From: Gemmatimonadota bacterium
GTDB lineage: Bacteria > Gemmatimonadota > Gemmatimonadetes > Longimicrobiales > Gaopeijiaceae
Assembly: GCA_022823225.1 (NCBI GenBank)
Contig: JAJDXM010000079.1
Location: forward strand, 1-64,000
Length of the DNA stretch: 64,000 nucleotides
Direction: 5' to 3'
This document shows positions 1,834 to 31,690 of the stretch, in pieces. Position 1 is the first letter of the stretch. Every line of letters starts with the position of its first letter. A model generated the notes under the pieces. That model was given only the letters and a program-made list of their open reading frames with translations. It searched no databases and was not told the origin of the DNA. A program made the position numbers and the translations under genes.

Positions 1834-1849
1834 TTTCAAACCCTGTTCT

Positions 1850-2014
1850 GCGCCAGAAGGACGGCCACGTGGTCGGCCGTCGGAGTCGATGTCGTGCAGT
1901 CGAACGGCGTGCGAGGTCGGCAAGCCCATCCCCGTCGAGATCCGCGATGACCAGGTCCACCGGATTCTCGCCGGCGGCAACGGACCACGTTATTTCGAAG
2001 CGGTCGTCACCCCG
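1850..2014 (-). pseudogene. FG-GAP/VCBS repeat fragment, locus A part 1
   Basis: Read on the minus strand this encodes a piece of a calcium-binding beta-propeller repeat, with ENPVDLVIADLDGDGLADL followed, after a frame change, by HAVRLHDIDSDG. The same protein segments occur at 13790-14326, 24352-24490 and 29690-30011. Compared with the 13.8-14.3 kb copy, about 50 residues are deleted between the two repeats, and there is no start or stop of its own. It is therefore a remnant of a secreted FG-GAP protein. Confidence 0.75.
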
Positions 2015-2072
2015 GCCAAGCGGGCGCGGATGCGTGATGGGTCTTCCGGTCGGGCGCGTATGGGAGGGTACT

Positions 2073-2456
2073 ATGACCTTCGGCATCCCGATAATCGATT
2101 CGATCTTCTTCTCGAGCAACGCGAAGGTACACGCGGAAAGCGTGGTGGCCGCGATGGACGCGGAAGAGAGAGCATTCACTGGCCGGTCGCTGTATTACGA
2201 CATGATGGACGACGTGGAAACTCTCAACGTCCCGGCGCTCACGAACGGCCAGGTGGCCGCACTGTGGCTTGCCGCGCACCGGATCGGATACCCGTCCGCG
2301 CTGTGGCGGGACGGGGGCCGCTTGCTGGACGGCCACGATGACATGGCCGGTGACCTTCGCGCGGGCCTCGCGAACTGGGAAGCCAAGGCCACGGAGAGGC
2401 ACGGTCCGGACATCATTATGTCCGTGCTTGCCGGAGCGATCGCCCTGACGAGGTGA
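2073..2456 (+). CDS. Hypothetical 127-residue protein
   Basis: The ATG at 2073 is preceded by GGGAGGG at a good distance, which fixes this start. The protein begins with a short hydrophobic stretch (IPIIDSIFF) and continues as a mostly helical, acidic soluble protein. I do not recognise a family. The gene sits between two pieces of the same broken FG-GAP repeat (1850-2014 and 2462-2518), so it appears to have arrived inside that repeat. No partner gene is adjacent on this strand. A defence or toxin-antitoxin role is possible only from context. Confidence 0.6.
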   Translation: MTFGIPIIDSIFFSSNAKVHAESVVAAMDAEERAFTGRSLYYDMMDDVETLNVPALTNGQVAALWLAAHRIGYPSALWRDGGRLLDGHDDMAGDLRAGLANWEAKATERHGPDIIMSVLAGAIALTR

Positions 2457-2461
2457 CGCCA

Positions 2462-2518
2462 CTCAGTGGCCGCCGGAAACCACGAGGTCCAGCCGCCCGT
2501 CGCCATTCAGACAGGGTT
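2462..2518 (-). pseudogene. FG-GAP/VCBS repeat fragment, locus A part 2
   Basis: On the minus strand this encodes LNGDGRLDLVVSGGH, identical in sense to the start of the repeat kept whole at 29.8 kb and 14.3 kb. In those copies the segment continues directly into the DGHFEVTW / DGRFEVTW motif, which here lies about 450 bp away in part 1. The intervening DNA carries the 127-residue gene. Confidence 0.75.
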
Positions 2519-5745: not shown

Positions 5746-5975
5746 TGTCGTTACCTCCGTAACTCAGGTGATTATCTCTGGCATCATGAATAGACATGTC
5801 ACGACTGTAACAGCCATGACCGCGAGAGTCAATAGGAAAGAGTGGCGATCGAAGGAGAGTGTCCGGCGGCCATTCGACGCGGGCACTCTTCCCTCATCCC
5901 ACAACTCGGCCCATCCGGCCATCGATCCGCCCAATCACCTCCGCGAACTTGGCGTCCCCCCTTCCCAGAGACGCG

Positions 5976-6613
5976 ATGCACGATCCCTTCCTCAAGTCGT
6001 TCTTCGCCGATCGCCGCATCGTCGGAATCCTGATCCGCGATCACGTGCTGCCAATAACCACATACACCGCGTTGGCGCTCGAGGGAATCGCAACCGGACC
6101 CGACTTCGGCCCCGGCGACGCGCTGCCGGAGTTCGTCTATCTCGTCCTCTACCACGGCGACGGTCCCTGGAGTGGTCCGGATCGCGTGGCCGACCTGTTC
6201 CAGCGTTCCGATCCGGGCCGGTTCCGCCTGGTGTCGTGGCGAGAAGGGGCGGGAACCGGTCGGCCGCTGGACGACATCACGGCGCTGGTGCTCGGGGTGG
6301 CCCGAAGCCACGGGCCTGAGGACATGGCTGAGCAGGTGGCAGCTCTGCGACTCAGGGTCGCGGAACTCGGCGACGCCAGCCTGGAACGCATTCGTGGTCG
6401 AGCGACTGGAGACGCTGTTAGAATTGTCGGACGCAGGGCCAGGCAATGGTCCTGCGTCGGCTGATCGCGCGGAGGTTCGGCGAGGCCACGGCGGGGCAAG
6501 TGTCCGACGCGGTTGAGGAGCTGACTGGCAATGAGGGCATCGACAAGGTGACCGACGCGCTGTTCGAGTGCGGCACCGGCGACGAGTTCATCGAACGGGT
6601 GCGTACGGCTTGA
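5976..6613 (+). pseudogene. Rpn-family nuclease remnant, copy 1
   Basis: The reading frame begins with MHDPFLKSFFADRR and jumps to ITTYTALALEG, DALPEFVYLVLYHGDG and ALVLGVARSHGPEDM, the N- and C-terminal hallmarks of Rpn (recombination-promoting nuclease / transposase_31) proteins. The central PD-(D/E)XK core is missing. Against copy 2 it has a one-base insertion near 6385 that shifts the frame, and about 100 bp are lost before the conserved tail (6446-6613, ending GDEFIERVRTA). It is inactive as a nuclease. Flanking DNA before the start is shared with copy 3 (28.5 kb). Confidence 0.8.
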
Positions 6614-6720
6614 CGACCGGGCGAACGGATCTGGGACGTGAGGTGGAAGCGGCACTTGGCGAGGTGCTTGCCCATGTGCGAGGAGAAACGTCGCTCCCGT
6701 GTCGGCCGGTGGAGCTGCGT
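6610..6720 (+). pseudogene. HigA-like antitoxin N-terminal fragment, copy 1
   Basis: A TTG overlapping the Rpn stop (TTGA) opens a frame reading TDLGREVEAALGEVLAHVRG, which matches the N-terminus of XRE-type HigA antitoxins (the DLGxE-x-LxEVxAHxxG pattern). The helix-turn-helix domain is absent; after about 35 residues the sequence runs into unrelated DNA. The same fragment follows Rpn copy 2. The family call rests on this short pattern only. Confidence 0.5.
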
Positions 6721-6789
6721 GGGCGCGGCCGCCGGAAGCGAGACCACGAATCCGGGGGTAGCCCGCGAAGTCTAATTCTAATTGCGTAC

Positions 6790-8458: not shown

Positions 8459-8880
8459 CGGCCGGCCTCGGTGGCGGATTCGTCCAGGACGCTCCAATGA
8501 CCACCTTTGTCGGGACCCACCCGCTCGATCTTCCCGGCCTCGCGCAACCTGTCCAGCCGATACCGGACGGTGGATCGCGTGGCGCCGAGGGTGGCGGCGA
8601 TTTCGCGGCGGCTGGCGGACGGGTTCTTCCGCAGGAAGGCGAGGATGCGGTCCCCAACTTTCTGGCGGTTTTCTGGCTGATCCCGATTTTCTGGTTGTTT
8701 TCTGGCTGATCTGCGCAGGTCCGCCAGACGGAGCAGGTCGGTCACCTCGATGGCCTCGCGGCGGATCTCCCGCCCGATCTCGACGACGCCGCCTCGACCG
8801 TTCGCGAGTCCGCAGATGCAGTCCAGGTGCTCGTCCCGCCAGGAGGATATCCGCTCGACTTGAGAAGGGTCAGGCGTCAT
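8455..8880 (-). CDS. Internally deleted AlbA_2/winged-helix protein
   Basis: The 141-residue product starts MTPDPSQVERISSWRDEHL. It keeps the AlbA_2 start (ICGLANGRGGVVEIG), then passes directly, after about 58 residues, into a C-terminal winged-helix domain (NPSASRREIAATLGATRSTV, LREAGKIERVG). The AlbA_2 second half and the ATP-binding core are deleted in frame. It therefore encodes at most a small DNA-binding protein. It overlaps the next AlbA_2 gene by ATGA. A closely related, differently deleted gene lies at 19654-20505. It may be a relic, or may still act as a repressor. Confidence 0.65.
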   Translation of the reverse strand: MTPDPSQVERISSWRDEHLDCICGLANGRGGVVEIGREIRREAIEVTDLLRLADLRRSARKQPENRDQPENRQKVGDRILAFLRKNPSASRREIAATLGATRSTVRYRLDRLREAGKIERVGPDKGGHWSVLDESATEAGR

Positions 8881-8965
8881 GTGCGTCGTCGTCCTCCGTG
8901 TCGTCGTCGGGGATGGGTAGCCGGATGGCACCGGTTAGGAGCTGCTGCATCATAACCCTGCTTGA
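8873..8965 (-). pseudogene. hsdS: Type I restriction HsdS C-terminal fragment
   Basis: The frame contains RVMMQQLLTGAIRLPIP, the usual C-terminal end of HsdS specificity subunits (LMQxLLTGxxRL). It is followed by an acidic tail DDDTEDDDAHDA that overlaps the start of the AlbA_2 gene. The target-recognition domains are missing. The acidic-tail DNA is repeated near 21133-21162. Confidence 0.65.
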
Positions 8966-9059
8966 TCGCGCGGGTTTTGTCGAGGCGGTGTGCGAGGGCT
9001 CTGCAACCCGTGCATTGACGTTGCCCTTGGTGACGCCGTTCTTTCCCTCCAATCCATTC

Positions 9060-9172
9060 AGCGCACCTTCGTCAGCGGTGTGGATCTCCGTCACCACCAG
9101 GTACACATCGTCGGAGAACGGGGGATTGGCGACAGTGAAGTCGAACCGCTTGAGGCGCCCCGGGCCGTCCGA
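9060..9172 (-). pseudogene. hsdM: Type I restriction HsdM fragment (NPPF motif)
   Basis: The minus strand reads LKRFDFTVANPPFSDD, matching the catalytic FDxxxxNPPF motif of N6-adenine methyltransferase subunits of type I systems. An in-frame TAG lies shortly before it, and the sequence after it (YLVVTEIHTADEGA) is not HsdM-like as far as I can tell. Only the motif region survives. Confidence 0.55.
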
Positions 9173-9258
9173 GTTCGCCTACGACCGATTGGGGATCCTT
9201 CGCGGGGAGGCCGAGTCCAGCGAGGCAACGCGACGCAATCCGGTTCACTCGCGTGGCC

Positions 9259-12182: not shown

Positions 12183-12194
12183 CTTGCATCCCGG

Positions 12195-13721
12195 CTACCG
12201 GGAATCTGAATCGTCGGGTGTCCGCCTCCGCCAAACAAATGCACTCTCGCCGGACTCGGCGGTAAGGCGGATGCCCTCTTGGAAGTCTCCGGCGGATGCT
12301 TTCTGGCCAAGGTTCCCCGTCCATGTTGCCTGCGGTCTTGAAATCAGTCTGCCTTCGAGCCCCGACATCTCGCACTCATCAAGAATCACTCTCGCTGCCT
12401 TTTCCAATTCGTGGATTCTCTCGTGGTGTAAGCCGCGCTCGATTGCCTCCTTGACGCTTGCAGAGTTCTGAAAGTACCGGGATTCGTGGAAGATCTTCCC
12501 AGGCTCCCTCAGTACGTTACCGATGTCGGTGTAGTCCGCTTCCAAACGCGCCCGGCTATCTTCTGGAAGGTCCGAGTACAGCTCCTGCACGTCGTGAATC
12601 CTCTTCGCCCGATGGCAGCGGGTCATTAGAATCGCCTTCAATGCCACCTCACAAGAGAATGCCGCCATCAGGCCGCGCATCATGAGTGCCCCCGCTCTCT
12701 CCTCCCAAGTGCCGGGGTCTGCCCGCGAAGCTACATCTACATCCAGGTGTATCCCCGACTCATCCAGGCGGTCGATTCGGAGCTTCAATGGCCCGGCGGG
12801 ATCCAGCTCATCCCAGCGGTGAATCGCCGTTTCGAACGGAAGGCTGCGGGCAGCTGCAGCGAGGAGCTTCGCCTGCAGATAGAGGTATCCAGCTTCGCCT
12901 GCGGGGATGGTATCGCGGGTGAGAAAGTGCGTGCGCCCCTCCTTTGCCGGAAGCCTGAGTGCCTGCTCTGCCCGCATGTCCCAGTGGGCCTGGTCGCGGG
13001 GCATGTCGGCGATGATCTTCGCCACGAACTTCGCCGCGGGGCGGTAGTCCGGTGTTTCCCCGCGCGCCATCTCAGCGAGATTGTGGGTCGCTTCTCGCTC
13101 CATCGCACTCCACTCAGCCATCGCCGCATCGTTCGATAGACTGCTCGTACAAAGCGCGCATCCGATTCTTGTGACCGTTCCGCTCTCAGAAGCGGAGAGA
13201 CGTGCGTCCCCCCAGCACGCCGTGCATCGCAATTTGACGATTGGGGGGGCCGTCCCATCGGTCATAACCGGCTCGAGGTTCGCGAATGACTTCGCCCGCA
13301 GGAAGATGGCCGGATCCTGAAGCAGTCTCAGGTGGCGGTCGTTGGCCACGTTCTGGATGATCTCGCGCGTTTCCCAGCGGGCGATCGACGACTCGCCGAG
13401 CCCGCTAATCCTCGCCAGCTCCGCTCGAGAGAGATCATACTTCGCCCGGAGATCACGAATCTCGATTGGCGTGAGAACACCCAGGTGCCGGCAGACTTCG
13501 TCGTGGCGGATGTCCTCGGCTTCGTCATCTGTGTAGGGTCCGCAAGAGGAGCAGGTCCGGACCGGGATGTCTACGACCAGCTCGACGCCTTCGTCGCCGG
13601 CGCCATAGATGAACGGGTCCCGAACGAGTTCGGTCTTGAGGCCCGGGGTCCCACACATATCACAGGTGTCGGGTCCGTCGAGCTCGCGGAGAACGGTGGG
13701 GGGAGATGCGACGCTAGGCAT
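12195..13721 (-). CDS. MqsA-like zinc-ribbon/HTH protein fused to HEPN-like domain
   Basis: The start at 13721 is set by GGAGG nine bases upstream; an in-frame ATG at 13730 abuts that site too closely. Residues 18-60 form an MqsA/YgiT-type zinc ribbon (C20, C23, C57, C60). It is followed by the LTPIEIRDLR / LSRAELARISG helix-turn-helix (about 83-122) typical of MqsA antitoxins. A second CxxC pair set (C166, C169, C188, C191) suggests another zinc ribbon. Residues about 350-455 form an HEPN-like helical domain with EVALKAI and RAKRIHDVQELY, which includes an R-x4-H spacing. The 508-residue fusion joins an antitoxin-type sensor to a possible RNase module and heads the operon that ends in the primase-helicase. 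Confidence 0.75.
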   Translation of the reverse strand: MPSVASPPTVLRELDGPDTCDMCGTPGLKTELVRDPFIYGAGDEGVELVVDIPVRTCSSCGPYTDDEAEDIRHDEVCRHLGVLTPIEIRDLRAKYDLSRAELARISGLGESSIARWETREIIQNVANDRHLRLLQDPAIFLRAKSFANLEPVMTDGTAPPIVKLRCTACWGDARLSASESGTVTRIGCALCTSSLSNDAAMAEWSAMEREATHNLAEMARGETPDYRPAAKFVAKIIADMPRDQAHWDMRAEQALRLPAKEGRTHFLTRDTIPAGEAGYLYLQAKLLAAAARSLPFETAIHRWDELDPAGPLKLRIDRLDESGIHLDVDVASRADPGTWEERAGALMMRGLMAAFSCEVALKAILMTRCHRAKRIHDVQELYSDLPEDSRARLEADYTDIGNVLREPGKIFHESRYFQNSASVKEAIERGLHHERIHELEKAARVILDECEMSGLEGRLISRPQATWTGNLGQKASAGDFQEGIRLTAESGESAFVWRRRTPDDSDSR

Positions 13722-13789
13722 GGTGGTCATCCTCCGAGTAGCTCGTCGGGCAAGTTCGCTCCTTCCGATGGTTTCATGAAGATAACTGC

Positions 13790-14326
13790 CCATATGACAT
13801 GCTACCGGCTCCTACGTGTGGCCGATCCTCCGCGACGACCGAGAATGGGCCGAAGCGCACCGGTAGGGTTGCCCGCGGTCGAAAGCCGCCGTTCCTGTCG
13901 GCGACAAGGACGACCACGTGGCCGGAATTCGGCGTGATCAGGTCCGCAAGGCCGTCACCCGTCACGTCGGCCAGACTCATGCCCCGGTTCGATGTCGCGC
14001 AGTCGAACGGCGTGCGGGTGCGGCGAGACGTCGACGCGGAATCTCGAGTGGTCCCGGCGTTCGAAGCCCCCTTCGGCGATCCCGAAGAGCAGCGTAACAT
14101 GGTCCGTCTCGTGGTTTGCGACCGCGAGGTCGGCAAGCCCGTCCTCGTCGAGATCCGCGATGGCCAAGTCCACCGGATTCTCGCCGGCGGGGCCGGACCA
14201 CGTCACTTCGAAGTGGCCGTCACCCTGGCCGGTCAGCACGAAGACGCTCTGGCCGCTGGAAACCACGAGGTCGAGGCGCCCGTCGCCATTCAGATCGCAA
14301 GCTTGGATCGGGGTGGACGACAAACG
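13790..14326 (-). pseudogene. FG-GAP/VCBS repeat protein fragment, locus B
   Basis: This is the longest surviving stretch of the recurring protein: LNGDGRLDLVVSSGQ, FEVTWSGPAGENPVDLAIAD, DEDGLADLAVANHE, LLFGIAEGGFERRDH and HAVRLRDIE. After a one-base frame change near 13985, SLADVTGDGLADLITPN follows. These are four successive Asp-rich FG-GAP/VCBS blades. It lacks a signal peptide and a proper end and lies exactly between the zinc-ribbon/HEPN operon and the STAND operon. Confidence 0.8.
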
Positions 14327-14386
14327 CCGCCCTCGCCTCCCATACAGCTGCTCGCTGGACGACCGGGGGGGACTACGTGTATCAAC

Positions 14387-16885
14387 TCAACTCTCAACCG
14401 ATGTCTCGTTGCTCAACTCATCCCGAATCTCCGCGAACTCGCGCTGGATGTCTTCCGCCACCTTGCGGACTTCGGTTGCGACCCTGGGCTTCTTTCCCAT
14501 TTCCCAATCAAGCGCGGTCGTGAGCGGGAGCAAATGGTCGGCGGACGGTGATTCTCGAATCACGGAGGCCATCCGGTGCACGCCCAGTGCCAAACTGGCT
14601 ACGAGCAGTGTCTGGATCGTACCCGCCGGCACCGCAGAGAGCTGCGGGAGTTTTCGAAGCATCTCCCGGACATCCGCGGTGGCATGGGCCAGATTCCCTT
14701 CCTCGATGTAGGTCAGGACCCTGATCGCGCGGGTGGCCAGACCCAGAATCAACACAGCCTCCGCACCGTCGTCACCCACTTCCCCGGCCGAGACGCGCTC
14801 ATCATGCCGGTCCAGTCTAGTCAACAGTTCCCGACAGGCTGAGAGATGTTCCCGAGTGCGCCCCAGCACGCTCAGAACTGCGCTCCTGGTAGCCATGACT
14901 CTCCACGTGGCTTGCTGAACGCGAAGCGATGGGTGCCTTCCGAGCCTGGCCAGGACACCCTCGCAGAGCTCTAGCGCCTCATTCCATCGCCGGAGGTTAA
15001 AGAGGGTCTCAGCCTTGTTGGCTTGCCCGTTCGCGACCGAGACCAGGACACTTGCCGATTCACTGAGCCCGAATCGGTCATTGAGTTTGCTATAGGACGC
15101 CAACGCCTCCTCCGCACGCCCCATCTCTTCGAGCATGCTACCGCGACTGAAGAGGGCGGAGGCCACAAACTCGGCAACCGTATCCGATCCATCACTGGGA
15201 AACCGTTTGATCAGGAGGTCGCAGACCTCGATTGCATGCCGTGTCCGCCCCAGGTTGGTGAGAACGTAGGACTTGTTCAACAGCGCCTTAGCCGCACCTG
15301 GGCGGAGTTCCGGCGAACCTGAAGTCTCGTATAGTGCGGCCGCCTCATCATATGCGGCCATCGCCTCCGAGCCCCGATCCAGACGCACTAGAATGACGCC
15401 CTTGTTCACGAGCGCGTTGACCACGCAGAACCGAACAGTGGGCGCCGTGTGCGTCTGGAACCTCTCCAGGAGATCCTCGAGGACCATCAGCGCTCCACGG
15501 AGATCGCCCTTCTCGAACTTGACCCCACCTCGTGTCAACAGGGCTGCCGCTTCCTCCGTGATCTCCCTCACCTCTCCAGGGAAGTGATCCCGGTGCTCCC
15601 GATACACGTGCCAGGCCAATTCCGGCAGGCTGCTGAACTGTTTCAACGCCGCCTCGTAGATCAGGCGCGTACAGTGATCGACGGCTCCCAACTCGGCCAC
15701 CATGTCGTCCACCATCCCTCGCAGTTCCGCGTGGGAATAGTACGCGTCCATGAACCGGACGAGTGCCCCCACCAGGTTGTCCGTGCCACGGCTCCGGCGA
15801 AGCAGGTAGTAGATGTTGTAGAGACGCTCGCTGACGTAGTACTGCTTCCTGCGGTCTGTTCCGCCGGCGTCCGACACCACGCCACGTCCCTTCAGTCGCC
15901 TGAGTTGCGCACTGCACTTGCTGGTTTCCATCCTGGCGCGCACGGCGACCTCGCGCGCGGTCGCCGGCTTCCATAATTCCGCTAGAGCGAGGTACACCCG
16001 CCGCTCCTGGGGGGCCAAGGACTCCAGATGGCTTTTGAAATAAGCCGTGTGCTCGTCGACAAGATCGAGCAGATCGGACAGAAGGGTGCGAAACGACCGT
16101 TCAGCTCCGAACCGGGCCACGATCGCGAGCAATCGGGGGCTTCCCCCGGTGAGGATCTGAAGGCGGCGGACCACGCCGTCGTCCAGGTCTTTCCCGGAAA
16201 CACTCTCGCACAGTACCGCACTCTCGTTTCGATCAAGCGGCCGCAACGTGAGTACCCGAAAGAGGTCGTAAAGCGCCCGGTCGGGCCTGTCGATTCCTCC
16301 GAACCTGCTTGTCGCGCTTCCGATCAACATGATTCGTGGCTCGGTCTGGAGCGTCTTTCTCAAGCACCATTCCGCGTCGGGGTCAGTCATGTCGGAGAAC
16401 AGCATGTTGAGGTTCTCGACGTGGAGCACCAGGCGTTTTCCTGCCTGTTCAGCAAAGTCGAGCACTGCACCGAGGCAGCGTTCGTGGAGTACACGGTCGT
16501 CCCGCTCCCTGCGCACATCCTCCACCGTGCGCCGGAGATCAAGTTCGCCGGAGCGGTAGGACTCCTTCAGGGCCAGGCGCGACAGACACTCCAGCCAGAA
16601 CTCGCCGCAGGTGCTCACCGAATAGCTCTCCTCTGCGAAGACGATCGGATGCAATCGCGACGAGAGTTCGGGATCCGACCGTACCTCCAGGGCGACGCGT
16701 AGCAACAGGGTCGTCTTGCCGCTGCCCCGCGGCCCGACCACGATCACGTGTTGGTTCGACTCGCCGGTGTTGTCGCGAAGGGTCTCAAGGAGCGATTCGA
16801 ACTCGCGGACTCTCACGCAGAACATCGTCCTGAGTTCGTCGTCCGTCAGGAATCCCGGGTTGTAACTCTTGGTCGCGATGGCCAT
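14387..16885 (-). CDS. STAND-like ATPase with winged helix and TPR repeats
   Basis: The ATG at 16885 has a GGGAGGG site upstream and lies 16 bases after the preceding ATPase gene. The 832-residue protein has a P-loop GPRGSGKT (51-58), a Walker B-like KRLVLHVEN strand and a PRIMLIGSATSRF sensor strand. A winged-helix segment follows (ATAREVAVRARMETSKC, about 355-400), then a long helical region with TPR-like repeats (about 500-760). No N-terminal effector domain is present, unlike most antiphage STAND proteins. A paralogue with the same architecture lies at 25716-28220. Likely roles are ligand-sensing regulation or defence; the choice is inference. Confidence 0.75.
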   Translation of the reverse strand: MAIATKSYNPGFLTDDELRTMFCVRVREFESLLETLRDNTGESNQHVIVVGPRGSGKTTLLLRVALEVRSDPELSSRLHPIVFAEESYSVSTCGEFWLECLSRLALKESYRSGELDLRRTVEDVRRERDDRVLHERCLGAVLDFAEQAGKRLVLHVENLNMLFSDMTDPDAEWCLRKTLQTEPRIMLIGSATSRFGGIDRPDRALYDLFRVLTLRPLDRNESAVLCESVSGKDLDDGVVRRLQILTGGSPRLLAIVARFGAERSFRTLLSDLLDLVDEHTAYFKSHLESLAPQERRVYLALAELWKPATAREVAVRARMETSKCSAQLRRLKGRGVVSDAGGTDRRKQYYVSERLYNIYYLLRRSRGTDNLVGALVRFMDAYYSHAELRGMVDDMVAELGAVDHCTRLIYEAALKQFSSLPELAWHVYREHRDHFPGEVREITEEAAALLTRGGVKFEKGDLRGALMVLEDLLERFQTHTAPTVRFCVVNALVNKGVILVRLDRGSEAMAAYDEAAALYETSGSPELRPGAAKALLNKSYVLTNLGRTRHAIEVCDLLIKRFPSDGSDTVAEFVASALFSRGSMLEEMGRAEEALASYSKLNDRFGLSESASVLVSVANGQANKAETLFNLRRWNEALELCEGVLARLGRHPSLRVQQATWRVMATRSAVLSVLGRTREHLSACRELLTRLDRHDERVSAGEVGDDGAEAVLILGLATRAIRVLTYIEEGNLAHATADVREMLRKLPQLSAVPAGTIQTLLVASLALGVHRMASVIRESPSADHLLPLTTALDWEMGKKPRVATEVRKVAEDIQREFAEIRDELSNETSVES

Positions 16886-16901
16886 GGTGCGCCCTCCCTT
16901 C

Positions 16902-18155
16902 TTATGCCTGTCGATCGCCGAAGAGGACGAACCCCCGGGCGTTGCGCGCGCGCCACCAGTCTTCAACCAGCCCCGAAACGAATTCGTAGCCGCCTTCGCG
17001 TCGGACCAGGTAGCCGTCGTGTTCCAGAACGTGCAGGACATCTCCGACTTGCCCACCGGACTCCCCGGACAGGACCGACCGGTAGGCGTCGTACTGCTGA
17101 ATCGAATCGTCGGTGAGCCGCCCACCGCTGACCGCTGCCTGCGTCAGCAATTCCAGAGCGACCACGTAGCCGTCATCGCCTAGAACCATGCGCAGCCGAC
17201 TCTGGTAGTGTTCGAGATACACCTGCCCCCGAACGCCGAGCATGTCCTGCGAATACACGGTGTCGATGTCATCCACGGACGCTTCGCGCCGATCGTTCCG
17301 CCGTAGATGCTCGTGGAGCTTGTCAAAGAACTGCTGCACGTGGTGCGGGATTCCACAGCGCAGGCGGCGGAACATGCCTGTCCGCACACGCTCCGGAACC
17401 TGAAGTCCGTAGGACGTGGCCAGTTCGCCAAGGCAGGCGACGGCAGTTTCTTCATCCCAGGGCCTCAGCTCGAACGGCGCGAACACGTTTGCGTGAGCGC
17501 TCAGCTCGGCCTGCTCAAGGATCGGCTCCAGGCCCACGCTGCCAGACACCACGAGTCGAATGCGCTCTCGATGTACCTGTGCATTCTTGCGAAGCCAGCT
17601 CAGGAATTCATCGGTGTCCCGTCGGCGCTGCGGCGTGATCTTGTAGTCGTGGCCCTTGAGAAGCCGGTTCACCAGGATCGGCAGCTCGTCGATCGCCAGA
17701 ACCATCGGTTTCTCGCTCGCAGCAAGCGATGCGAACAGTGCGTCGCCTTGGGCACGCCACCGTCCCGCATCGATTCCGGCCCGGAGCTTGACTCTGAGTT
17801 CGCTGACCCCCAGTTCGTCGATTCGATCCATGGTTCCGGCTGACACCTTCCCGGCCCAGTTCATTACGCGGGTCCATAGGCCCCGAATGTCTCGGAACGC
17901 AGCCGCAATCTCTACCACGGCGTCCGCCGCAGTGGTGCAATCCTCCAGATCGACGAACACCGTCTCGAAGTCGCCGGTTTCGTCGAGGCGCCGGAGCAGT
18001 TCGCGCACCAGGCTGGTCTTTCCCATCCGCCGCTGGGCGGTCACGAGGGTATGGATTCTGTCCTCCACCCGCTCGATGAGCGCCTCGATCTCGACCTCCC
18101 GGTCGAAGAAGCTGTCCCCCGCGACCCAGTTCCCCCCCGCTTTTCGTAAGCCCAT
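16902..18155 (-). CDS. AAA-type ATPase (ATPase_2/COG1672-like)
   Basis: This 417-residue protein carries a P-loop TAQRRMGKTSLV near residue 39, the QRRxGKTS form typical of archaeal-type ATPase_2 proteins. It also has an AIDELPIL Walker B, a VVSGSVGLEPIL sensor strand and a C-terminal winged-helix-like region (VLEHDGYLVRR). Of several in-frame Met codons, the one at 18155 is preferred because GGAGG lies eight bases before it. It is the first gene of the operon with the STAND-TPR gene. Three GTTGGCAAC-type repeats lie just upstream. It may pass signals to, or load, its TPR partner; that is inference. Confidence 0.75.
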   Translation of the reverse strand: MGLRKAGGNWVAGDSFFDREVEIEALIERVEDRIHTLVTAQRRMGKTSLVRELLRRLDETGDFETVFVDLEDCTTAADAVVEIAAAFRDIRGLWTRVMNWAGKVSAGTMDRIDELGVSELRVKLRAGIDAGRWRAQGDALFASLAASEKPMVLAIDELPILVNRLLKGHDYKITPQRRRDTDEFLSWLRKNAQVHRERIRLVVSGSVGLEPILEQAELSAHANVFAPFELRPWDEETAVACLGELATSYGLQVPERVRTGMFRRLRCGIPHHVQQFFDKLHEHLRRNDRREASVDDIDTVYSQDMLGVRGQVYLEHYQSRLRMVLGDDGYVVALELLTQAAVSGGRLTDDSIQQYDAYRSVLSGESGGQVGDVLHVLEHDGYLVRREGGYEFVSGLVEDWWRARNARGFVLFGDRQA

Positions 18156-18172
18156 TCCCATTCCTCCCATCA

Positions 18173-18216
18173 GATTTGTTGGCAACGATTTTGTTGGCAA
18201 CAGAAATGTTGGGAAA
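18173..18216 (-). promoter_or_regulatory. Three-unit GTTGnCAAC array upstream of ATPase operon
   Basis: The palindrome GTTGGCAAC occurs at 18178-18186 and 18193-18201, with a half unit GTTGGG from 18208. The spacing is exactly 15 bp and the intervening 6-base spacers are AT-rich. The nearest unit ends 22 bp before the start codon of the minus-strand ATPase. An array of the same motif and period precedes the paralogous gene at 25716. A tandem operator for a dimeric regulator is the natural reading. Confidence 0.65.
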
Positions 18217-18247
18217 ACTGGCGGCGCGGTCAAGACCCTACGGACGC

Positions 18248-18858
18248 GGCGTCAAGGCCCCGGCGACGCGCTTCCGGAGTTCGTCTACCTCGTCTTCTAC
18301 CACGGCGACGGTCCCTGGGGTGGTCCGGATCGCGTGGCCGACCTGTTCCAGCGTTCCGATCCGGGCCGGTTCCGCCTGGTGTCGTGGCGAGAAGGGGCGG
18401 GAACCGGTCGGCCGCTGGACGACATCACGGCGCTGGTGCTCGGGGTGGCCCGGAGCCACGGGCCGGAGGACATGGCTGCGCAGGTGGCAGCTCTGCGACT
18501 CAGGGTCGCGGAACTCGGCGATGCCAGCCTGGACGCGTTCGTGGTCGAGCGACTGGAGACGCTATTAGAATTGAGAGGCTACACGGAGGCATTGGAGCTG
18601 GGATGAGCGAAGACGATGGACGAGTTGACGGAGAGGTTTCAGCGGGGTCTGGAAGAGCTGGTGCAGAGGGGTGCCCGGCAGGGCTAGGCAATGGTCCTGC
18701 GTCGGCTGATCGCGCGGAGATTCGGCGAGGCCACGGCGGGGCAAGTGTCCGACGCGGTTGAGGAGCTGAGTGGCAATGAGGGCATCGACAAGGTGACCGA
18801 CGCGCTGTTCGAGTGCGGCACCGGCGACGAGTTCATCGAACGGGTGCGGACGGTTTGA
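18248..18858 (+). pseudogene. Rpn-family nuclease remnant, copy 2
   Basis: This copy lacks the whole N-terminal third and begins at DALPEFVYLVFYHGDG. It then keeps the Rpn C-terminal region through LGDASLDAFVVERLETLLEL and the tail ending GDEFIERVRTV. Two in-frame stops interrupt it: TGA at 18604-18606, where copy 3 has GGA, and TAG at about 18684, just before the AMVLRRLIAR segment. It is almost identical in DNA to copy 1 over the shared part, including DNA beyond the stop. Confidence 0.8.
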
Positions 18859-19076
18859 CTACCGGGCGAACAGATCTGGGACGTGAGGTGGAAGCGGCTC
18901 TGGGCGAAGTGCTTGCCCATGTGCGAGGAGAGGCGTCGCTCCCGTGCAGAACGGTTGGTGAGCCTGCGGTGGAGCGCACGTCGGCGGTTGACCGTCAGCG
19001 ACCGCGGTCGCTGAAGCGCGACGGCGATGCATCGGACAGCGCGTTCGACGGCCGCCGCCGGAGAAAATCCCCATGA
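18855..19076 (+). pseudogene. HigA-like antitoxin fragment, copy 2
   Basis: As in copy 1, a TTG overlapping the Rpn stop opens TDLGREVEAALGEVLAHVRG, here followed by SLPCRTVGEPAVERT, further into the usual N-terminus of this antitoxin type. From about residue 45 the sequence no longer resembles an XRE helix-turn-helix, probably because of a frame change. The frame runs on by chance to 19076, touching the DUF2283 start. Confidence 0.5.
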
Positions 19077-20797: not shown

Positions 20798-21011
20798 CCG
20801 CGACCTCGACGTGGGTGACGTAGACCTCGCTGCGCAGGCGCCGCTCGATTTCCTCTTCGGGGGCAACCTCGAAGAACAGGGCCAGCGCTTCTTCGAGGTT
20901 CTTCCGGGCCTCGGAGACGGAGTCCCCCTGGCTGGCGACATCGACCTCCGGGCACAGCGCGACGTACCCGCTGCCCTCCCGTTCCACGATCGCGGTCAGT
21001 TGTCTTCTCAT
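20790..21011 (-). CDS. hicB: HicB-type antitoxin
   Basis: The 73-residue protein has the HicB partial RNase H-like fold signature: LTAIVEREGSGYVALCPEVDVASQGDSVSEARKNL broken over residues 4-40, then an EALALFFE helix and a VTHVEV terminal strand. It lacks a separate C-terminal DNA-binding domain, as is common in short HicB proteins. AAGGAG lies five to six bases before the ATG at 21011. It neutralises the HicA toxin encoded immediately after it. Confidence 0.85.
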   Translation of the reverse strand: MRRQLTAIVEREGSGYVALCPEVDVASQGDSVSEARKNLEEALALFFEVAPEEEIERRLRSEVYVTHVEVAVG

Positions 21012-22359
21012 CCGTACTCTCCTTCGTGTCCCGGAAAGGTGGGAGCCTGACCGGTGCGCGGCAAGCCACGAGGTCGAGCCGCCCCTCGCCATTCCGGTTG
21101 TGAGCCTCGATCACCGTCGGCTTTGACGGCGTCATGGGCGTCGTCGTCCTCCGTGTCGTCATCTCGCGCTTCACCCATCGTCGACCGACCGCGCCTCAAT
21201 CGCAACGCCCGCCCTCCAACTGCCCCAATCTCCCGCCGAACCTGCGCCACCTGATCCGCGAGCTCCTCCGGCGACGGCAGATACAGCTGGTACTCCGATG
21301 CGTAGATGTTGGCGTCCTCGGGCAGCGTCAGCTCGACAACGGCGTCGTTCTTGTGATCGCAGAGCAGGATCCCGACCGTCGGCAGTTCGCCGTCGATCTT
21401 CACGTAGCGGTCGAAGTAGTTCACGTACATCTGCATCTCCGCTGGCCGAGGTCCTGATGGGTCAGCTTACCGGTCTTGAGATCGATCAGCACGTAGCAGC
21501 GAAGCAGCCGGTTGTAGAACACCAGGTCCACGAAGAAATGACTGTCGTCGAAGCTGAAGCGCTTCTGGCGGGCCTCGAACAGGAATCCCTTGCCGAGTTC
21601 GAGCAGGAACTGTTGGAGCCGGTCGATGATCGCGGTCTCCAGATCGCTCTCGGAGTAGGCCGGTGTCTCCTCCAGGCCGAGGAACTCCAGCACCACCGGG
21701 TCCTTGATGAGGTCCGACGCCTTTTCGACCACATGTCCCTCACGGGCCAGGCGGCGGACTTCGTGCTTGTCGCGGCTGAGCGCGAGCCGCTGGTACAGGG
21801 AGCTGTCGAGCTGGCGCTTGAGTTCGCGGACGCTCCAGCCGTTCTCCGCCGCCTCGATCTCGTAGAATCGGCGGGCCTCGGGGTCGGATACGGACAGGAG
21901 GGTGACGTAGTGGGACCAGCCGAGGGGGAGGCGGTGAATCAAAGTGGCGGAAGCAGACCGCAGCGCTTGCGACATGCCCGCTCCTGATGCAGTGGATTTC
22001 GCAGACGGTGTCTGCGGATTCTGAGCAGCGGCGGAAATCGCAGACAGTGTTTGCGTTTTTCCGGCTTGTGGCAGGATCTCTTCGGATTGCAGGTAGAAGC
22101 GTCGAAACTGCTCGGGGGATCGCAAGGAAAACCCCCGCCCGATCCTCTCCTTCAGGGCCGCGGACAGTCTCTTCAGGGTCTGCGCGCCATACTCTGCCCG
22201 ATCCGCGCCGCTCTGCTCATACTCCACGATGTACCATCCGAACAGCCAGTTCCGGACGACCAGCGAGCGGTCGACGGCGCGGGCCGCGGAGCGCCGAGTT
22301 TCCTCATGGGTCTGCTGGCACAGCTCGACCAGACGCTCTAAATCGAATCGCTTCTCCAT
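21008..22359 (-). pseudogene. DUF1016 (YhcG-like) PD-(D/E)XK nuclease, frameshifted
   Basis: The N-terminal DUF1016_N domain (LVVRNWLFGWYIVEYEQ, LKRLSAALKERIGRGFS) and the C-terminal nuclease domain are both present. The nuclease domain includes FFVDLVFYNRLLRCYVLIDLK with its catalytic D and D-x-K, and LTHQDLGQ. Just after LTHQDLGQ a net +2 insertion near 21436 shifts the frame; the remainder (MQMYVNYFDRYVKIDGE, GILLCDHKNDAVVE) is open in the next frame. The tail past about 21170 is read through a foreign 30-bp repeat and FG-GAP DNA, so the true C-terminus is replaced. DUF1016 nucleases often accompany type I restriction systems. Confidence 0.8.
21046..21122 (-). pseudogene. FG-GAP/VCBS repeat fragment, locus C
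   Basis: A short stretch encodes IEAHNRNGEGRLDLVACRAPV, a diverged version of the repeat segment LNGDGRLDLVVSGG found at the other loci. It lies between hicB and the broken DUF1016 gene, joined to the 30-bp sequence shared with 8.87 kb. Confidence 0.55.
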
Positions 22360-22484
22360 ACTTCACCCCCATATCGTTCCATTGAATTTGAACTTCGAAC
22401 CGGGACTCCGGTCCCCATAATCTCCGACGGTTACCTCTCTCAGTGAAACGAGCGCCCTCGCAGAGAATACGACCTCGTATCGGG

Positions 22485-23349: not shown

Positions 23350-23404
23350 GGGCGCGAAAGGACCCACCGGCAAGCTCGTGCGCCCCTGGGCCCTACCCTG
23401 ACCG

Positions 23405-24346
23405 TTACCCCTCCGTGCCCTCCCGCAGAAAGCCGGAGAGAGGGTTCGGAAGAGGCTTCGGGCTGGAAAACCCCCCACCGGTCTCGATGTCGACCGCTAT
23501 CGAGCCGATCAGGTTCCGGATGGCCTTCTCGCCACGGCCCAACCCCCACCGATACAAGCGGCGCCAGCCCAGCATCGCCACTGATCCGCCAGCGAGGAAA
23601 CCGGCTACAGCCGCGCCGGCTGCGAGACCTCCAATCCCGAGTGCGACGCCCGCGGCCGCGCCCACGAAACCGCCGCCGACGCCGAACACACCCGAGACGC
23701 TGCCCCCGACCCACAGAGCGAGCTTGTGGCTGTGCGTCACGCTCGCGCGAACGGTCAACTCCGTCGAGGGCGGACTGGTGTCCAGGCGCCGGAGGCTGAA
23801 GAGCAGCTGCTTCAGGTCTGCCAGGGCCATCTCGTACGCGAAGGACTGGTCTGCCGTGGTCGGAGTGTACGAGTAGGCAGGGGTCTTGAATACCAGCACG
23901 CCACCGTCGAGGGGATCGGCCCCGTGGTGATCGACAAGACTCAGGCGAAACGGGCGCTTCGGGAGGATGCGCTGCATGCCGGCGTAGACCTCTTCCGCCG
24001 GGGCGCGGATCACTCGCGAAACCTCCAGCGTGAGCGGTGGGTTACCCAGGAAGCGGGCCGCCACCACCGATCGTTGCTCCCGCGCTCCTTGGGCAAGGGT
24101 CTCGCTGCGAGCCTCCACTAGAGCATGATCGACAAACTCGGGCGAAATCCCGGCTTCTTCCGCGGCGGCCCGAACATCCTCGAGGCGGAACCCATCGACC
24201 TCCGCCGGGTCGGTGGCATCCCCCCGGGGGGCCAGCTGTCTCGAACGCGCTTCGAGGCGGCGGGCGGCCTCTGCCTGAAGCTCGGCCGCACGGCGCCAGA
24301 GCGCGCGCGCCTGCTCCTCGGAGATGCGGGTTTCGTCGTCGCTCAT
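23405..24346 (-). CDS. Membrane protein with glycine-rich hairpin, unknown function
   Basis: The ATG at 24346 (MSDDETRISEEQ) gives 313 residues. The N-terminal third is a charged helix with a GFRLEDVRAAAEEAGISPEFV motif, a short domain I have seen only in uncharacterised proteins. The middle is a beta-rich soluble domain. Two glycine/alanine-rich hydrophobic helices lie at about residues 218-262, resembling a membrane hairpin. Upstream DNA is an FG-GAP fragment. No enzymatic motif is visible. It may be a resident chromosomal gene between island modules. Confidence 0.55.
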   Translation of the reverse strand: MSDDETRISEEQARALWRRAAELQAEAARRLEARSRQLAPRGDATDPAEVDGFRLEDVRAAAEEAGISPEFVDHALVEARSETLAQGAREQRSVVAARFLGNPPLTLEVSRVIRAPAEEVYAGMQRILPKRPFRLSLVDHHGADPLDGGVLVFKTPAYSYTPTTADQSFAYEMALADLKQLLFSLRRLDTSPPSTELTVRASVTHSHKLALWVGGSVSGVFGVGGGFVGAAAGVALGIGGLAAGAAVAGFLAGGSVAMLGWRRLYRWGLGRGEKAIRNLIGSIAVDIETGGGFSSPKPLPNPLSGFLREGTEG

Positions 24347-24351
24347 GGGAT

Positions 24352-24490
24352 CGAAGGTAACTGCGGCGAGACGTCGACGCGGAACCATGAGTGGTCCCGG
24401 CGTTCGAACGCCCCTCCGGCGATCCCGAAGAGCAGCGTGACATGGTTCCGTCTCGTCGTTCGCGACTGCCAGGTCGGCCTGGCCGCAGCG
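24352..24490 (-). pseudogene. FG-GAP/VCBS repeat fragment, locus D
   Basis: The minus strand encodes NHVTLLFGIAGGAFERRDHSW and FRVDVSPQL, the same blade and linker as at locus B (LLFGIAEGGFERRDHSRFRVDV). Adjacent DNA at about 24490-24540 also matches 14310-14370 (the ACAAACGCCGCCCT block), so the two loci share the border as well. Confidence 0.7.
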
Positions 24491-24577
24491 ACAAACGCCG
24501 CCCTCCTCTCCCAATCCGGCGCTTGCTGGACGACGACGCTGGAATGCGTGTCTACTTGATCGCCGGAATCCAGTTGG

Positions 24578-25174
24578 CTAAACGGCCCGGGCAATCGCCT
24601 CCAGTTGCCGCTGCCGCTCTCTTGCGCCATCGTCGAGCACATCTTCCTTCGCCGCCACGATTGCGCCTCGAACCATATCGCTCTTGGTGGCTCCTTCCGT
24701 AACGACCGCGATGTCGCGCAACCGCACAACAAGCTCTCGCTGTATCCTCAAGCGCAGATCCTTCTGACACCTCCCCGTCGCCAATCGGCTCCTGGAGAGC
24801 GTATTCAGGCGCTGAGCCATGTCGGCATTCGCGCAAGCCAACGTGAGGTAGTATCGAATAACCGCGGGAGCGAACTGCTTGGGCGCCACGCGATAGCGGT
24901 CCGCCACGAGATGAAGCACGTCGTCGAGCTCCCGCGGCATCCGCACACTCATCACCTCCTCCTTCTTCGCTTCCCTCGCTGCTTTCAGCTTCGGCGTCGA
25001 TTGGGCTGGCACCGTCAGGACTTCTCCGGTTTCGGCATCGACGCCGACGAGGACGTTCCTGACCGTGGCCTTCGACTCCTCGAGTTCGACAGTTCGGTAC
25101 TCGTAAACGATCTCGACCCGCCCGCGTTCCGGCGCAAGAGCGTACCCGCGATCTCCTTCCCGCAAGATCTTCAT
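24578..25174 (-). CDS. Probable antitoxin of MqsR-like toxin
   Basis: The 198-residue protein begins one base after the stop of the MqsR-like gene, with AAGGA before its ATG, so the two are co-translated. The N-terminal 60 residues are beta-rich (VEIVYEYRTVELEESKATVR, DAETGEVLTV). Then comes a basic linker and a helical region with an MSVRMPRELDDVLHLVA segment that resembles a ribbon-helix-helix or CopG-like regulator. It is unlike MqsA, lacking zinc-binding cysteines. An antitoxin role follows from order and overlap, not from family identity. Confidence 0.6.
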   Translation of the reverse strand: MKILREGDRGYALAPERGRVEIVYEYRTVELEESKATVRNVLVGVDAETGEVLTVPAQSTPKLKAAREAKKEEVMSVRMPRELDDVLHLVADRYRVAPKQFAPAVIRYYLTLACANADMAQRLNTLSRSRLATGRCQKDLRLRIQRELVVRLRDIAVVTEGATKSDMVRGAIVAAKEDVLDDGARERQRQLEAIARAV

Positions 25175-25175
25175 C

Positions 25176-25496
25176 TCAGTTCCTTGCTCGATGAACGCTT
25201 ATGGACATCGCTTTCCAGTCGTCCCCGTCTGTCTCCACGAAATACACCTTGATGTACCACCGTTCCTCTCGCACCGTTGGCGTAAACGTGTGCACCATCA
25301 CGGATTCGTCCCAGTGGTGGGGCGATTCCCGGTAGTCTTCAGAGCGAGTCTTGAGCACGAGTGCTGCAACCTCGTTCGCATCGACATCGCCAACCGCCAG
25401 TAGGTTCTTCTCCGCGAGGGCGTCGCGAGCCTCGTGCTCGAAGTTACCTTCGTGAAGAGCCGCCACCACCACCGCCTTCGCCTCCGAGAATCCCAT
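25176..25496 (-). CDS. MqsR-like toxin candidate
   Basis: The 106-residue protein follows the MqsR pattern: an N-terminal helix, an A-x-x-ALAEKNLLAVGDVDANEV segment, a Leu/Thr-rich helix, SEDYRESPHHWDESV, and final strands with ERWYIKVYF and AMSISVH. In MqsR the equivalent is SDFYKSM and YLKI strands ending in SFK. MqsR is an mRNA interferase. Similarity is by pattern only, and other BECR-fold toxins could look alike. Its frame is open upstream into a broken Phd gene, so the start at 25496 is inferred from the end of similarity. The next gene is its likely antitoxin. Confidence 0.55.
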   Translation of the reverse strand: MGFSEAKAVVVAALHEGNFEHEARDALAEKNLLAVGDVDANEVAALVLKTRSEDYRESPHHWDESVMVHTFTPTVREERWYIKVYFVETDGDDWKAMSISVHRARN

Positions 25497-25533
25497 GCGG
25501 AATGGTACTACATTCGCAGTACGTGAGCAAGGA

Positions 25534-25650
25534 GTGTCATAGTGCTCCGGGCTCATGACGACCAATGGCGGCCTGGCCATTCTGGGTGATCGTCTCCACC
25601 CGTCTTTCTCGAATCCGGTCGAGGTGCTCGCCCAGGCGTTTCCGGAGGGA
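25534..25650 (-). pseudogene. Phd/YefM antitoxin internal fragment
   Basis: This encodes LGEHLDRIRERRVETITQNG and AAMVVMSPEHYD, nearly the same as residues 15-50 of the Phd gene at 22485-22763. It lacks both ends and is fused in frame to the DNA upstream of the MqsR-like gene. It is one of several antitoxin scraps at module borders. Confidence 0.75.
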
Positions 25651-25664
25651 AAGCCGCCGCGATC

Positions 25665-25703
25665 ATACACAACAAATCGGTTGACAACGAATCTGTTGTG
25701 TGT
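25665..25703 (+). promoter_or_regulatory. GTTGnCAAC array and promoter of STAND gene
   Basis: GTTGACAAC at 25680-25688 is flanked at exactly 15-bp steps by a half unit ACACAAC (ending 25673) and a half unit GTTGTG (starting 25695), with AT-rich 6-base spacers. TTGACA at 25681-25686 is a perfect -35 hexamer, and TATCTT 16 bases later is a plausible -10, so the array would overlap RNA polymerase. The coding start is 12 bp after the last unit. The layout matches 18173-18216, in the same orientation relative to the gene. Confidence 0.65.
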
Positions 25704-25715
25704 ATCTTCTGGTCC

Positions 25716-28220
25716 ATGGCCACCCAACCCGTCCCAGCCATCCGCAAGTTCAACCCCGGCCTCTTCCAGTCGGATCAGGAGGTCAGGAAGCAGTTCGTGG
25801 TCCGCAATCACGAACTCGGTCTCCTGCTCGATGACCTTCGGAGCAACATCAGTTCCCCATCGTGCCAGCACATTCTCGTAGTGGGGCCGCGCGGGCGGGG
25901 TAAGACCATGCTCCTTGCGCGCGTCGCGGCAGAGCTGCGCAGCAACGGGGAATTCGCCGGTTCGCTGCTGCCGGTTCGGTTCATGGAAGAGAGCCCGGAG
26001 ATCTTCGGTCTCACAGACTTCTGGCTGGAGACCTTGTTCCATCTGGCCAACGAGGTCGATGAGCACGATGCCGCGATGGCACGGCAACTCCGCGACACCC
26101 ACGCTACGCTGTCATCGCGGTGGCGGGAGCAGATCACCGTGGCGCAGGCCCGCGCTGCCGTGCTGGACGCCGCGGATCAACTGGGGAAGCAGCTCGTTCT
26201 CTTCGTGGAGAACCTGCAGTCACTCCTCCGGGACGCTCACGACGATTTTGCCTGGCAACTTCGCGAAGTCCTTCAGACCGAACCGCAGATCATCCTGCTG
26301 GCCTCGGCCACCAGCCGCTTCCGCGAATTGGACGACGTTGCCGAGCCGTTCTTCAAAATGTTCCGCATCGTCGGGCTGGGGCCCCTGAACACCGAGGAGT
26401 GCGTTCGCCTGTGGGAAGTCGTGAGCGGGAGACGGGCGAGCCAGTCCGAAGTCAGGCCGCTCCATATCCTCACGGGCGGCAATCCTCGCTTGCTGGTGAT
26501 GGCGGCCGAGTTTGCGCGTCATCGTTCCGTTCGTCGGCTGATGTCCGAGCTGGTCACCATGATCGACGAGCACACCGAGTACTTCCGAGGTCACCTGGAG
26601 GCCCTGCCCAAGACGGAACGGCGTGTGTACGTGGCGGTGATCGACCTCTGGCAGCCCTCCTCCGCGAGCGAAATCGCGGCCCGGGCGCGCGTGGACATCC
26701 GGGTGGTATCGACCATGCTCGGGCGGCTGGTCGAACGCGGGGTGGTCGTCCGGCAGGGTTGGGGCCGGAAGCGGCTGTACGCCGCCGCCGAGCCATTGTA
26801 CAGCATGTACTACAAGCTGCGGCGGGAGCGGGACGACGCTGCGGTCGTGGAGAATCTGATCCGGTTCATGGTGGCGTGCTATGGGGTTGGGGATCTATGG
26901 AAGTTCTCGGTGTGGCTGACCGGTGTGGCGGCGGAGTCGGAAGCTCTACGACGCGGAATCCGGCAGGCGCTCTTGAGCAGACCGCCCCTCGGCGACTGTC
27001 TTGTCGACAGGAAGTGGGATGCCATCCAACGGGCTTCGGAACATGCGAGGACCCGCGTGGAGGCCAAGGCGATCGAGGACCTGGAGAAAGCCGTTGCGGC
27101 GGCGGTTGACGCGGAAGAGTTCGAAAGAGTCATCGAGCTCGTGGACGAGGATCTCTCGTCTCGATCACAGGAGACCCAGGAGCCCCCGACTGATTCGTAC
27201 ACTGCGTGGACGAGGTATCTGAAGGCGTTCGCCCATGAACAGTTGGGGAATGCGCGCGCCGTACTGGCGCTCTCCGACCAGGCGGTGGGGCTTGCTAACA
27301 GCCGCGACGAGATGGTCCAACTGTGGACGGCCCTGACGCTGGCCATGAGGGGAGGCGCACAGCACAGCCTTGGCGACCATGTTGCCGCCATTGGGACCTG
27401 TGACGAATTCATGCGTCGGTTCGGGTCCTGGCATCATGACCGATTTGAAGCGGCGATCGCGGAGACGCTTGTGACGCGCGGGTGCTGCAAGGCGCATCTT
27501 GGCGACCATCCCGGAGCCATCCGTGACTACGACGATGTGGTGGTTCAATTCGACGGTACCCGTCACCCCGAAACCCAACCGAGCATCGTAGCCGCGCTGA
27601 TGAGTAAGGCCCTGACATGCCGGCGCCTCGGCAACATCGAAGAGGAGATCCGCAGCTACGATGCTGTCATCGCCCGCTTCCAATCCTCTGATGTCCTGGA
27701 CCTCCGGCGGCAAGCGGCGGTCGCCCTGAGCTGGAAGTGCATGGCGCAGGCCGAATCCGGCCTTGCTGACGAGGCTCTCGTAAGTTGCAAGAGGTTGGAA
27801 GAGACAGTTCGAACCTGGCCCGGGAATAGGGAAGATCTCTCGGCGGGACCTTGGGTCGAGTGGTTGGCTTGGCGCGCCGAGAGTGCCCGGTCACTGGCCC
27901 TGGCCGTCCAGAAGAACCATCGGGCTGCGCTGGACTCGTTTCAGGCTGCCTACGCCGTGTTTTTTCCCGACGATGAAGTGACGATGCGGGAGATGCTGGA
28001 TCTGGTGGCCAACTTGGTCGCGAGAGGTGCGGCGCCCCATGACCTGTTGGCCGTCCTCTCGGCCGACACCGCCAAATCCGCGAGCCTGCGTCCGCTGATC
28101 GTCGCCCTGCACCAGCGCGCGGGCGACCGGGTGCGCGCTCCGAGGGAAGTCCAGGAGGTGGCTGTCGATATTCGTGGGCGGTTTCGCGAGGCTGAGGAGC
28201 GGATGGGAGTGGTGCGGTGA
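25716..28220 (+). CDS. STAND-like ATPase with winged helix and TPR repeats (paralogue)
   Basis: The 834-residue protein is a paralogue of 14387-16885 over its full length. Shared features are the NPGLF/NPGFL start, P-loop GPRGRGKT (57-64), KQLVLFVEN Walker B-like strand, PQIILLASATSRF sensor, SASEIAARARVDIRVVSTML winged helix (about 325-360) and C-terminal TPR-like helices (about 480-720), ending in a VQEVAVDIRGRFREAEE helix. The first ATG at 25716 fits the promoter spacing. Unlike its paralogue it has no upstream ATPase_2 partner. The shared operator array suggests one regulator controls both loci. Function is unknown; regulation or defence are the likely classes. Confidence 0.75.
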   Translation: MATQPVPAIRKFNPGLFQSDQEVRKQFVVRNHELGLLLDDLRSNISSPSCQHILVVGPRGRGKTMLLARVAAELRSNGEFAGSLLPVRFMEESPEIFGLTDFWLETLFHLANEVDEHDAAMARQLRDTHATLSSRWREQITVAQARAAVLDAADQLGKQLVLFVENLQSLLRDAHDDFAWQLREVLQTEPQIILLASATSRFRELDDVAEPFFKMFRIVGLGPLNTEECVRLWEVVSGRRASQSEVRPLHILTGGNPRLLVMAAEFARHRSVRRLMSELVTMIDEHTEYFRGHLEALPKTERRVYVAVIDLWQPSSASEIAARARVDIRVVSTMLGRLVERGVVVRQGWGRKRLYAAAEPLYSMYYKLRRERDDAAVVENLIRFMVACYGVGDLWKFSVWLTGVAAESEALRRGIRQALLSRPPLGDCLVDRKWDAIQRASEHARTRVEAKAIEDLEKAVAAAVDAEEFERVIELVDEDLSSRSQETQEPPTDSYTAWTRYLKAFAHEQLGNARAVLALSDQAVGLANSRDEMVQLWTALTLAMRGGAQHSLGDHVAAIGTCDEFMRRFGSWHHDRFEAAIAETLVTRGCCKAHLGDHPGAIRDYDDVVVQFDGTRHPETQPSIVAALMSKALTCRRLGNIEEEIRSYDAVIARFQSSDVLDLRRQAAVALSWKCMAQAESGLADEALVSCKRLEETVRTWPGNREDLSAGPWVEWLAWRAESARSLALAVQKNHRAALDSFQAAYAVFFPDDEVTMREMLDLVANLVARGAAPHDLLAVLSADTAKSASLRPLIVALHQRAGDRVRAPREVQEVAVDIRGRFREAEERMGVVR

Positions 28221-28366: not shown

Positions 28367-28520
28367 GGCGCGAAACGACCCGTCGGCAAACCCGTCCCAG
28401 GTCGCCTGCGAACGCGCGCCTTCTCCGCACGCGGCCGCCACATCCTGACGACCGTCTCATCCAACCATTCGTCCGCCCGCCCACCCCCGCGAACTTGGCG
28501 TCCCCTCACCCGGAGACGCA

Positions 28521-29157: not shown

Positions 29158-29319
29158 GTCTCCGGAGTGGGCTCCCGCTCGGTGGGGCCGGCACGTCGGA
29201 TGCGATCCGCCGCTCTGTTCAAGCGCGGCACCGGCGATGAGGTTGACCACGACGGCCGCACTAGACCCTAACAATCCTGCAGATGATGAGAAGCGGCATC
29301 CTCGCAAGGAGATCCGGGC
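29158..29319. other. Gap after Rpn copy 3
   Basis: No gene is recognised. A few codons near 29218-29245 repeat the end of the Rpn tail (FKRGTGDEV-like), suggesting a decayed partial duplication of that tail. Confidence 0.3.
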
Positions 29320-29688: not shown

Positions 29689-29689
29689 T

Positions 29690-31632: not shown

Positions 31633-31690
31633 GGGGTTGTCACGGGAATGGTGATGAGTACGCGGGGGGCCGGCGGCGCCAGGCATCCCG

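Follow-up and report, generated by a model that had tools for sequence, protein, structure and literature searches.

The FG-GAP pieces in the window (bases 1-64000 of contig C90, the whole stretch of 64,000 bases analysed here, from a 4.19-Mb genome in 97 contigs) are most likely pseudogene relics of an old multi-copy gene, eroding between the modules of an accessory island. What had been noticed at these borders is correct and amounts to pseudogene erosion of a fairly ordinary kind, though the setting is unusual; the relics look like an old gene wearing away, not like purpose-built recombination sites.

FG-GAP pieces and their intact parent

The first-pass annotation had described five loci as fragments that derive from a single FG-GAP gene and all lie on the minus strand. 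Both points are borne out by blastn and by a nucleotide profile built from the sister-species genes, on which gene positions are counted over 1113 bases. The coordinates given at the time were correct to within about 35 bases, and two pieces could be added, one at 28367-28463 (copy B) and a weaker one at 6699-6777 (copy z). The inventory is as follows:

29668-30011, minus strand: FG-GAP copy A; 30011-29743 corresponds to gene positions 31-312 and 29747-29668 to 1027-1106 (profile), with an upstream remnant at 30010-30048
28367-28463, minus strand: FG-GAP copy B; gene positions 749-846, between the 3' end of HicB and the start of an Rpn-type gene
24335-24551, minus strand: FG-GAP copy C; upstream remnant X (24489-24551) and a profile match, 24484-24335, to gene positions 310-465, of which true homology stops at about position 433
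21057-21112, minus strand: FG-GAP copy D; a 56-base remnant 3' of the DUF1016 gene, found by blastn only (79-82%)
13824-14380, minus strand: FG-GAP copy E; 14319-13989 corresponds to gene positions 131-461 and 13990-13824 to 582-748, with upstream remnant X at 14318-14380
6699-6777, minus strand: probable FG-GAP copy z; gene positions 4-83, weak (77% identity to G003, E 8e-6), abutting the 3' end of an Rpn-type gene
1853-2511, minus strand: FG-GAP copy F; 2511-2443 corresponds to gene positions 156-227, 2018-1911 to 219-326 and 1913-1853 to 434-487; the first piece is loose beyond about position 201 and is followed by an insert of ~450 bases (2019-2466)

The pieces share about 78-98% identity and lie between 1853 and 30048, all in the same direction. 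When 13790-14326 was used as a blastn query against its own genome, matches were obtained on this contig only (E 1e-5 to 1e-66), and a search of the whole 4.19-Mb genome found no further pieces outside 1853-30048; they are thus confined to one locus and not spread evenly across the genome. Gene positions around 160-200 occur in copies A, D, E and F, and copies B and C stand in an order that cannot be derived from those four. This overlap, together with the order of B and C, indicates at least five former copies, and probably seven if copy z is included. The repeated sequence X was considered as a conserved cassette end and rejected, as it is the upstream region of the FG-GAP gene itself.

The annotation had proposed that an intact gene be sought in related genomes, and such a gene was found in five sister species (G003, G020, G013, G007 and G019). 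It is an open reading frame of ~370 codons whose product has a signal-peptide-like start and FG-GAP repeats (PF13517, E 2e-44; PF01839, E 1e-23). Pairwise dN/dS values between the intact genes range from 0.18 to 0.36, showing that the gene is maintained by selection, and compared with this parent under purifying selection the pieces in the window are truncated or frame-broken, as pseudogenes are. Relatives beyond the genus are few, at 33-35% identity among the 78 family genomes sampled. The solved relatives by sequence give only weak matches, to the lectins 4tqj and 2bwm, which suggest that the protein may bind at the surface.

The island and its modules

The island occupies bases 1-30140, where G+C is about 60-66%; rightward it is mostly 67-72%, and a chromosomal block kept in most of the genus follows. 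Accessory genes fill the island, among them genes for a PDDEXK nuclease, HEPN, AlbA/RecG-like and MqsA/HTH proteins, a TOTE primase-helicase, AAA ATPases, DUF1016, HicB and toxin-antitoxin-like pairs, besides broken Rpn-type genes. The clustering of TOTE, DUF1016/PDC-S02, PDDEXK/PDC-S26 and HicB identifies the region as a defence island. The modules to which the analysis refers are:

562-1834, plus strand: PDDEXK_4 nuclease module, neighbour of copy F
5907-6701, plus strand: decayed Rpn-type (Transposase_31) gene, an intact relative of which (L085:11406-12305) matches PF04754
9259-11826, minus strand: TOTE conflict-system primase-helicase gene (PF22548, E 8e-100)
12188-13741, minus strand: MqsA/HTH and HEPN-like module
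14387-18251, minus strand: two AAA ATPase genes, one with TPR repeats
18241-18955 and 28453-29254, plus strand: further broken Rpn-type copies
21204-22372, minus strand: DUF1016/YhcG nuclease gene, broken at its 3' end; 92% identity in G014
23383-24334, minus strand: module MEM, a gene with a membrane-like segment and no family match; 94-95% identity in G009, G012 and G021
24578-25534, minus strand: module M1, two small genes; 96% identity in G014, flanked there by FG-GAP pieces on both sides

The FG-GAP pieces had been said to lie nearly all between such modules, which is correct and expected in any case, since a pseudogene relic necessarily falls between intact genes. Module M1 gave no Pfam match and may be a toxin-antitoxin-like pair. 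The Rpn-type copies searched in the window are broken and gave no match to PF04754, and their intact relatives in G016 do match it. In this respect the intact relatives resemble the recombination-promoting nuclease (Rpn) genes described in PMC10327210, from which the window copies differ in being broken. The Rpn-type family recurs in most of the sister islands read. Two related AAA ATPase genes (14387-17143 and 25590-28220) stand in opposite directions within the island. A 36-base stretch (DDTEDDDAHDA) is common to 8870-9178 and 21008-21174, where type I methylase-like sequence (VANPPFSDDVY) adjoins it; these are perhaps relics of a restriction-modification locus.

Differing erosion at orthologous junctions

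If the borders had been formed at fixed positions of the gene, as the annotation proposed to examine, the ends of the pieces should coincide, and in the window they do not: of pairs no more than 10 nt apart, there is none among the 5' ends (0.83 expected) and one among the 3' ends (0.84 expected). Genus-wide, the 3' ends show a mild excess, with 10 close pairs compared to 3.75 expected (P 0.009). This excess is accounted for by deletions shared between copies, by one orthologous pair (copy B and its counterpart in G012, both ending at 846) and by an FG-GAP motif (gene positions 312-326), at which six of the 3' ends fall.

At orthologous junctions, the part of the gene that survives differs from species to species. 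At the position of copy A, 31-312 and 1027-1106 remain here, whereas G012 retains 1-155 and 339-1113 adjoining the same MTase-like/Rpn block; copy B consists of 749-846 here and of 679-846 in G012. Beside MEM, copy C runs from 310 to about 433 here, G021 has 93-320 and 741-828, and no piece was detected in G012. Copy D, of which 56 bases are left here, is mostly erased in G012, although the sequence that flanks it on one side is 97% identical. Such differences point to independent deletion as the origin of the borders, and short overlaps are found at deletion junctions (13989-13991 and 29743-29747 in the window, 6106-6108 in G012). An overlap in the profile at the copy F insert was considered as a target-site duplication and rejected as loose alignment.

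Elsewhere in the genus, the same positions hold a complete or nearly complete gene. An intact FG-GAP gene stands alongside the MqsA-like neighbour of copy E in G020 (G020:C5), the gene beside the PDDEXK neighbour of copy F has a single internal deletion in G018 (1-713/909-1113), and the gene beside the MTase/Rpn neighbours of copy A likewise has one deletion in G012, which argues that an old multi-copy family has decayed differentially. Similarity among the window copies does not exceed their similarity to copies of other species, so that the family is either old or exchanged; the tree of the copies is poorly resolved, as the pieces are short.

In the history that we favour, an ancestor of the genus would have had a hypervariable toxin-antitoxin/defence island next to the conserved chromosomal block, and in it a secreted FG-GAP propeller gene in several copies facing the same way. 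Since no genome with all copies intact was found, we infer this array from its remains, and its copies may have arisen by tandem or ectopic homologous duplication. Most copies would then have died species by species, worn down as deletions arose between short repeats (frequently the FG-GAP motifs of the gene itself), with occasional insertions adding to the erosion, and the intact copy retained would differ from species to species. Selection that keeps the neighbouring modules would presumably limit this process, halting it at their edges and leaving scraps as border markers. Truncated overlapping copies, short-repeat deletions and an intact parent in relatives are all features of pseudogene relics in hypervariable islands; what sets the present case apart is that five or more copies lie between unrelated modules over 28 kb and in one direction. 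A limited literature search on FG-GAP relics in defence islands gave nothing on point.

Module movement, strand and rival explanations

The annotation's preferred mechanism, in which the FG-GAP copies act as direct-repeat homology for RecA-type shuffling, gain and loss of modules, is possible, but we consider it improbable. Several observations agree with it. Within any one contig the FG-GAP copies always share one strand, and an FG-GAP piece follows each of M1 and DUF1016 in the window genome (G000) as well as in G014, the two modules standing in swapped order. Identity to G014 is 96% for M1 and 92% for DUF1016, compared to 83-86% for the core genes tested, so that segments probably move between species and part of the array appears to have come sideways, not by descent alone, which counts against the history favoured above. 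The best-matching genome also switches across copy C, from G012, G009 and G021 for MEM/HicB to G014 for M1. Finally, among the matches listed, the strand of the modules is as in the window (562-30140) in 125 of 126 homologous non-FG stretches (22 contigs, 18 genomes), with M1 as the exception (7 of 8 flipped), while their order varies, 252 pairs standing in the same order and 131 of 383 reversed. These counts were typed by hand among the matches listed, with some families counted more than once, and the repeated families inflate both order counts.

Homologous exchange through direct repeats would give such a strand lock and random insertion would not; the lock is in keeping with recombination that preserves orientation by way of direct repeats generally (Rpn, HicB and FG-GAP). 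The FG-GAP copies are nevertheless not required for shuffling, since the same modules make up the same kind of island in stretches where no copy was detected: G001 and G005:C180 hold several with no FG-GAP in the stretch read, M1 has none detected alongside in G020:C98 and G016:C222, and the orientation lock holds there as well. Several module borders in the window lack FG-GAP, and of the borders at which the best-matching genome changes only some carry it, AAA-TPR/Rpn and M1/AAA2 being without. Short, ~90%-identical repeats are poor substrates for RecA recombination, and the pieces are 45-330 bases long and mostly about 90% identical. A non-systematic look revealed no hybrid FG-GAP copy in which a crossover was evident. 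Together with edges that vary between species, the stretches with no FG-GAP detected and the borders lacking it leave the claim that FG-GAP homology drives the shuffling without support. It is similarly doubtful that the island works as a bank of modules locked in orientation and shuffled in order, with direct-repeat relics of FG-GAP, Rpn and HicB supplying the homology by which sister species exchange modules ectopically, modules moving almost without inverting and dead copies being kept for that exchange.

The annotation had also suggested that the island grew by insertion into a tandem family. Growth around a multi-copy family agrees with the data, but strict serial splitting of a single gene or tandem pair by inserted modules is decidedly unlikely. 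The ~450-base insert that splits copy F and the position of MEM in G021, between FG-GAP 93-320 and 741-828, are what such splitting would produce; the five or more overlapping copies are not, the order is wrong for one split gene (704-819 upstream of 529-584, reference coordinates), and copy F has no target-site duplication. Even less probable is an integron-like or other site-specific array of cassettes that would use FG-linked sequence for attachment. Gain and loss of modules at a fixed orientation recall integron cassettes, and X recurs before several FG-GAP copies, but X is the upstream region of the FG-GAP gene, the modules use both strands, an exact-motif search found no recurrent short motif in the island that could be a common recombination site, and the 34 tyrosine-recombinase matches genome-wide include none on C90, a contig without the island's left end. 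The lack of an integrase match on the contig also separates the island from other defence islands and hotspots, which it resembles in carrying TOTE, DUF1016, PDDEXK, Rpn-type and toxin-antitoxin-like genes beside a conserved block, as does the genus-wide fixed strand of module families whose order shuffles. Nor does the island look like an Rhs/CDI-type array of orphan toxin ends, in which variable ends are fused in frame behind a conserved piece: the FG-GAP frames are broken where the pieces stop, and the adjoining genes may lie on one strand or the other. Assembly artefact is the most improbable reading of all: the contig of this metagenome-type draft begins at a repeat with which four others also end, but similar pieces with similar neighbours are found in the separate assemblies G012, G014 and G021.

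On the preferred reading, the erosion of an old multi-copy gene, the seams of a defence island can be marked by dead copies of a single gene, which also keep a record of the modules gained. The part most worth following is the strand lock: conservation of strand despite changing order would, if it holds in finished genomes, limit the mechanisms by which such islands are built.

The edges of the island carry features of their own. Bases 1-148 are a repeat with 99% identity to the ends of C77, C57, C23 and C22 of the same genome, probably a multi-copy element that breaks the assembly, so that the island's left end is missing. The gene adjoining copy A (30142-31686) has its sister homologue away from the conserved block (e.g. 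G014:C73:176303, G021:C82), so the right edge seen here may be a rearrangement. Beside the island, 33982-37779 encodes a 1265-aa protein with Spondin_N and cadherin-like repeats, whose relatives in a database search are mostly from Gemmatimonadota metagenome assemblies; sponge Gemmatimonadota have a literature of their own (Palauibacterales). A DNA repeat within that gene (35754-36158) matches extra copies in the sister loci.
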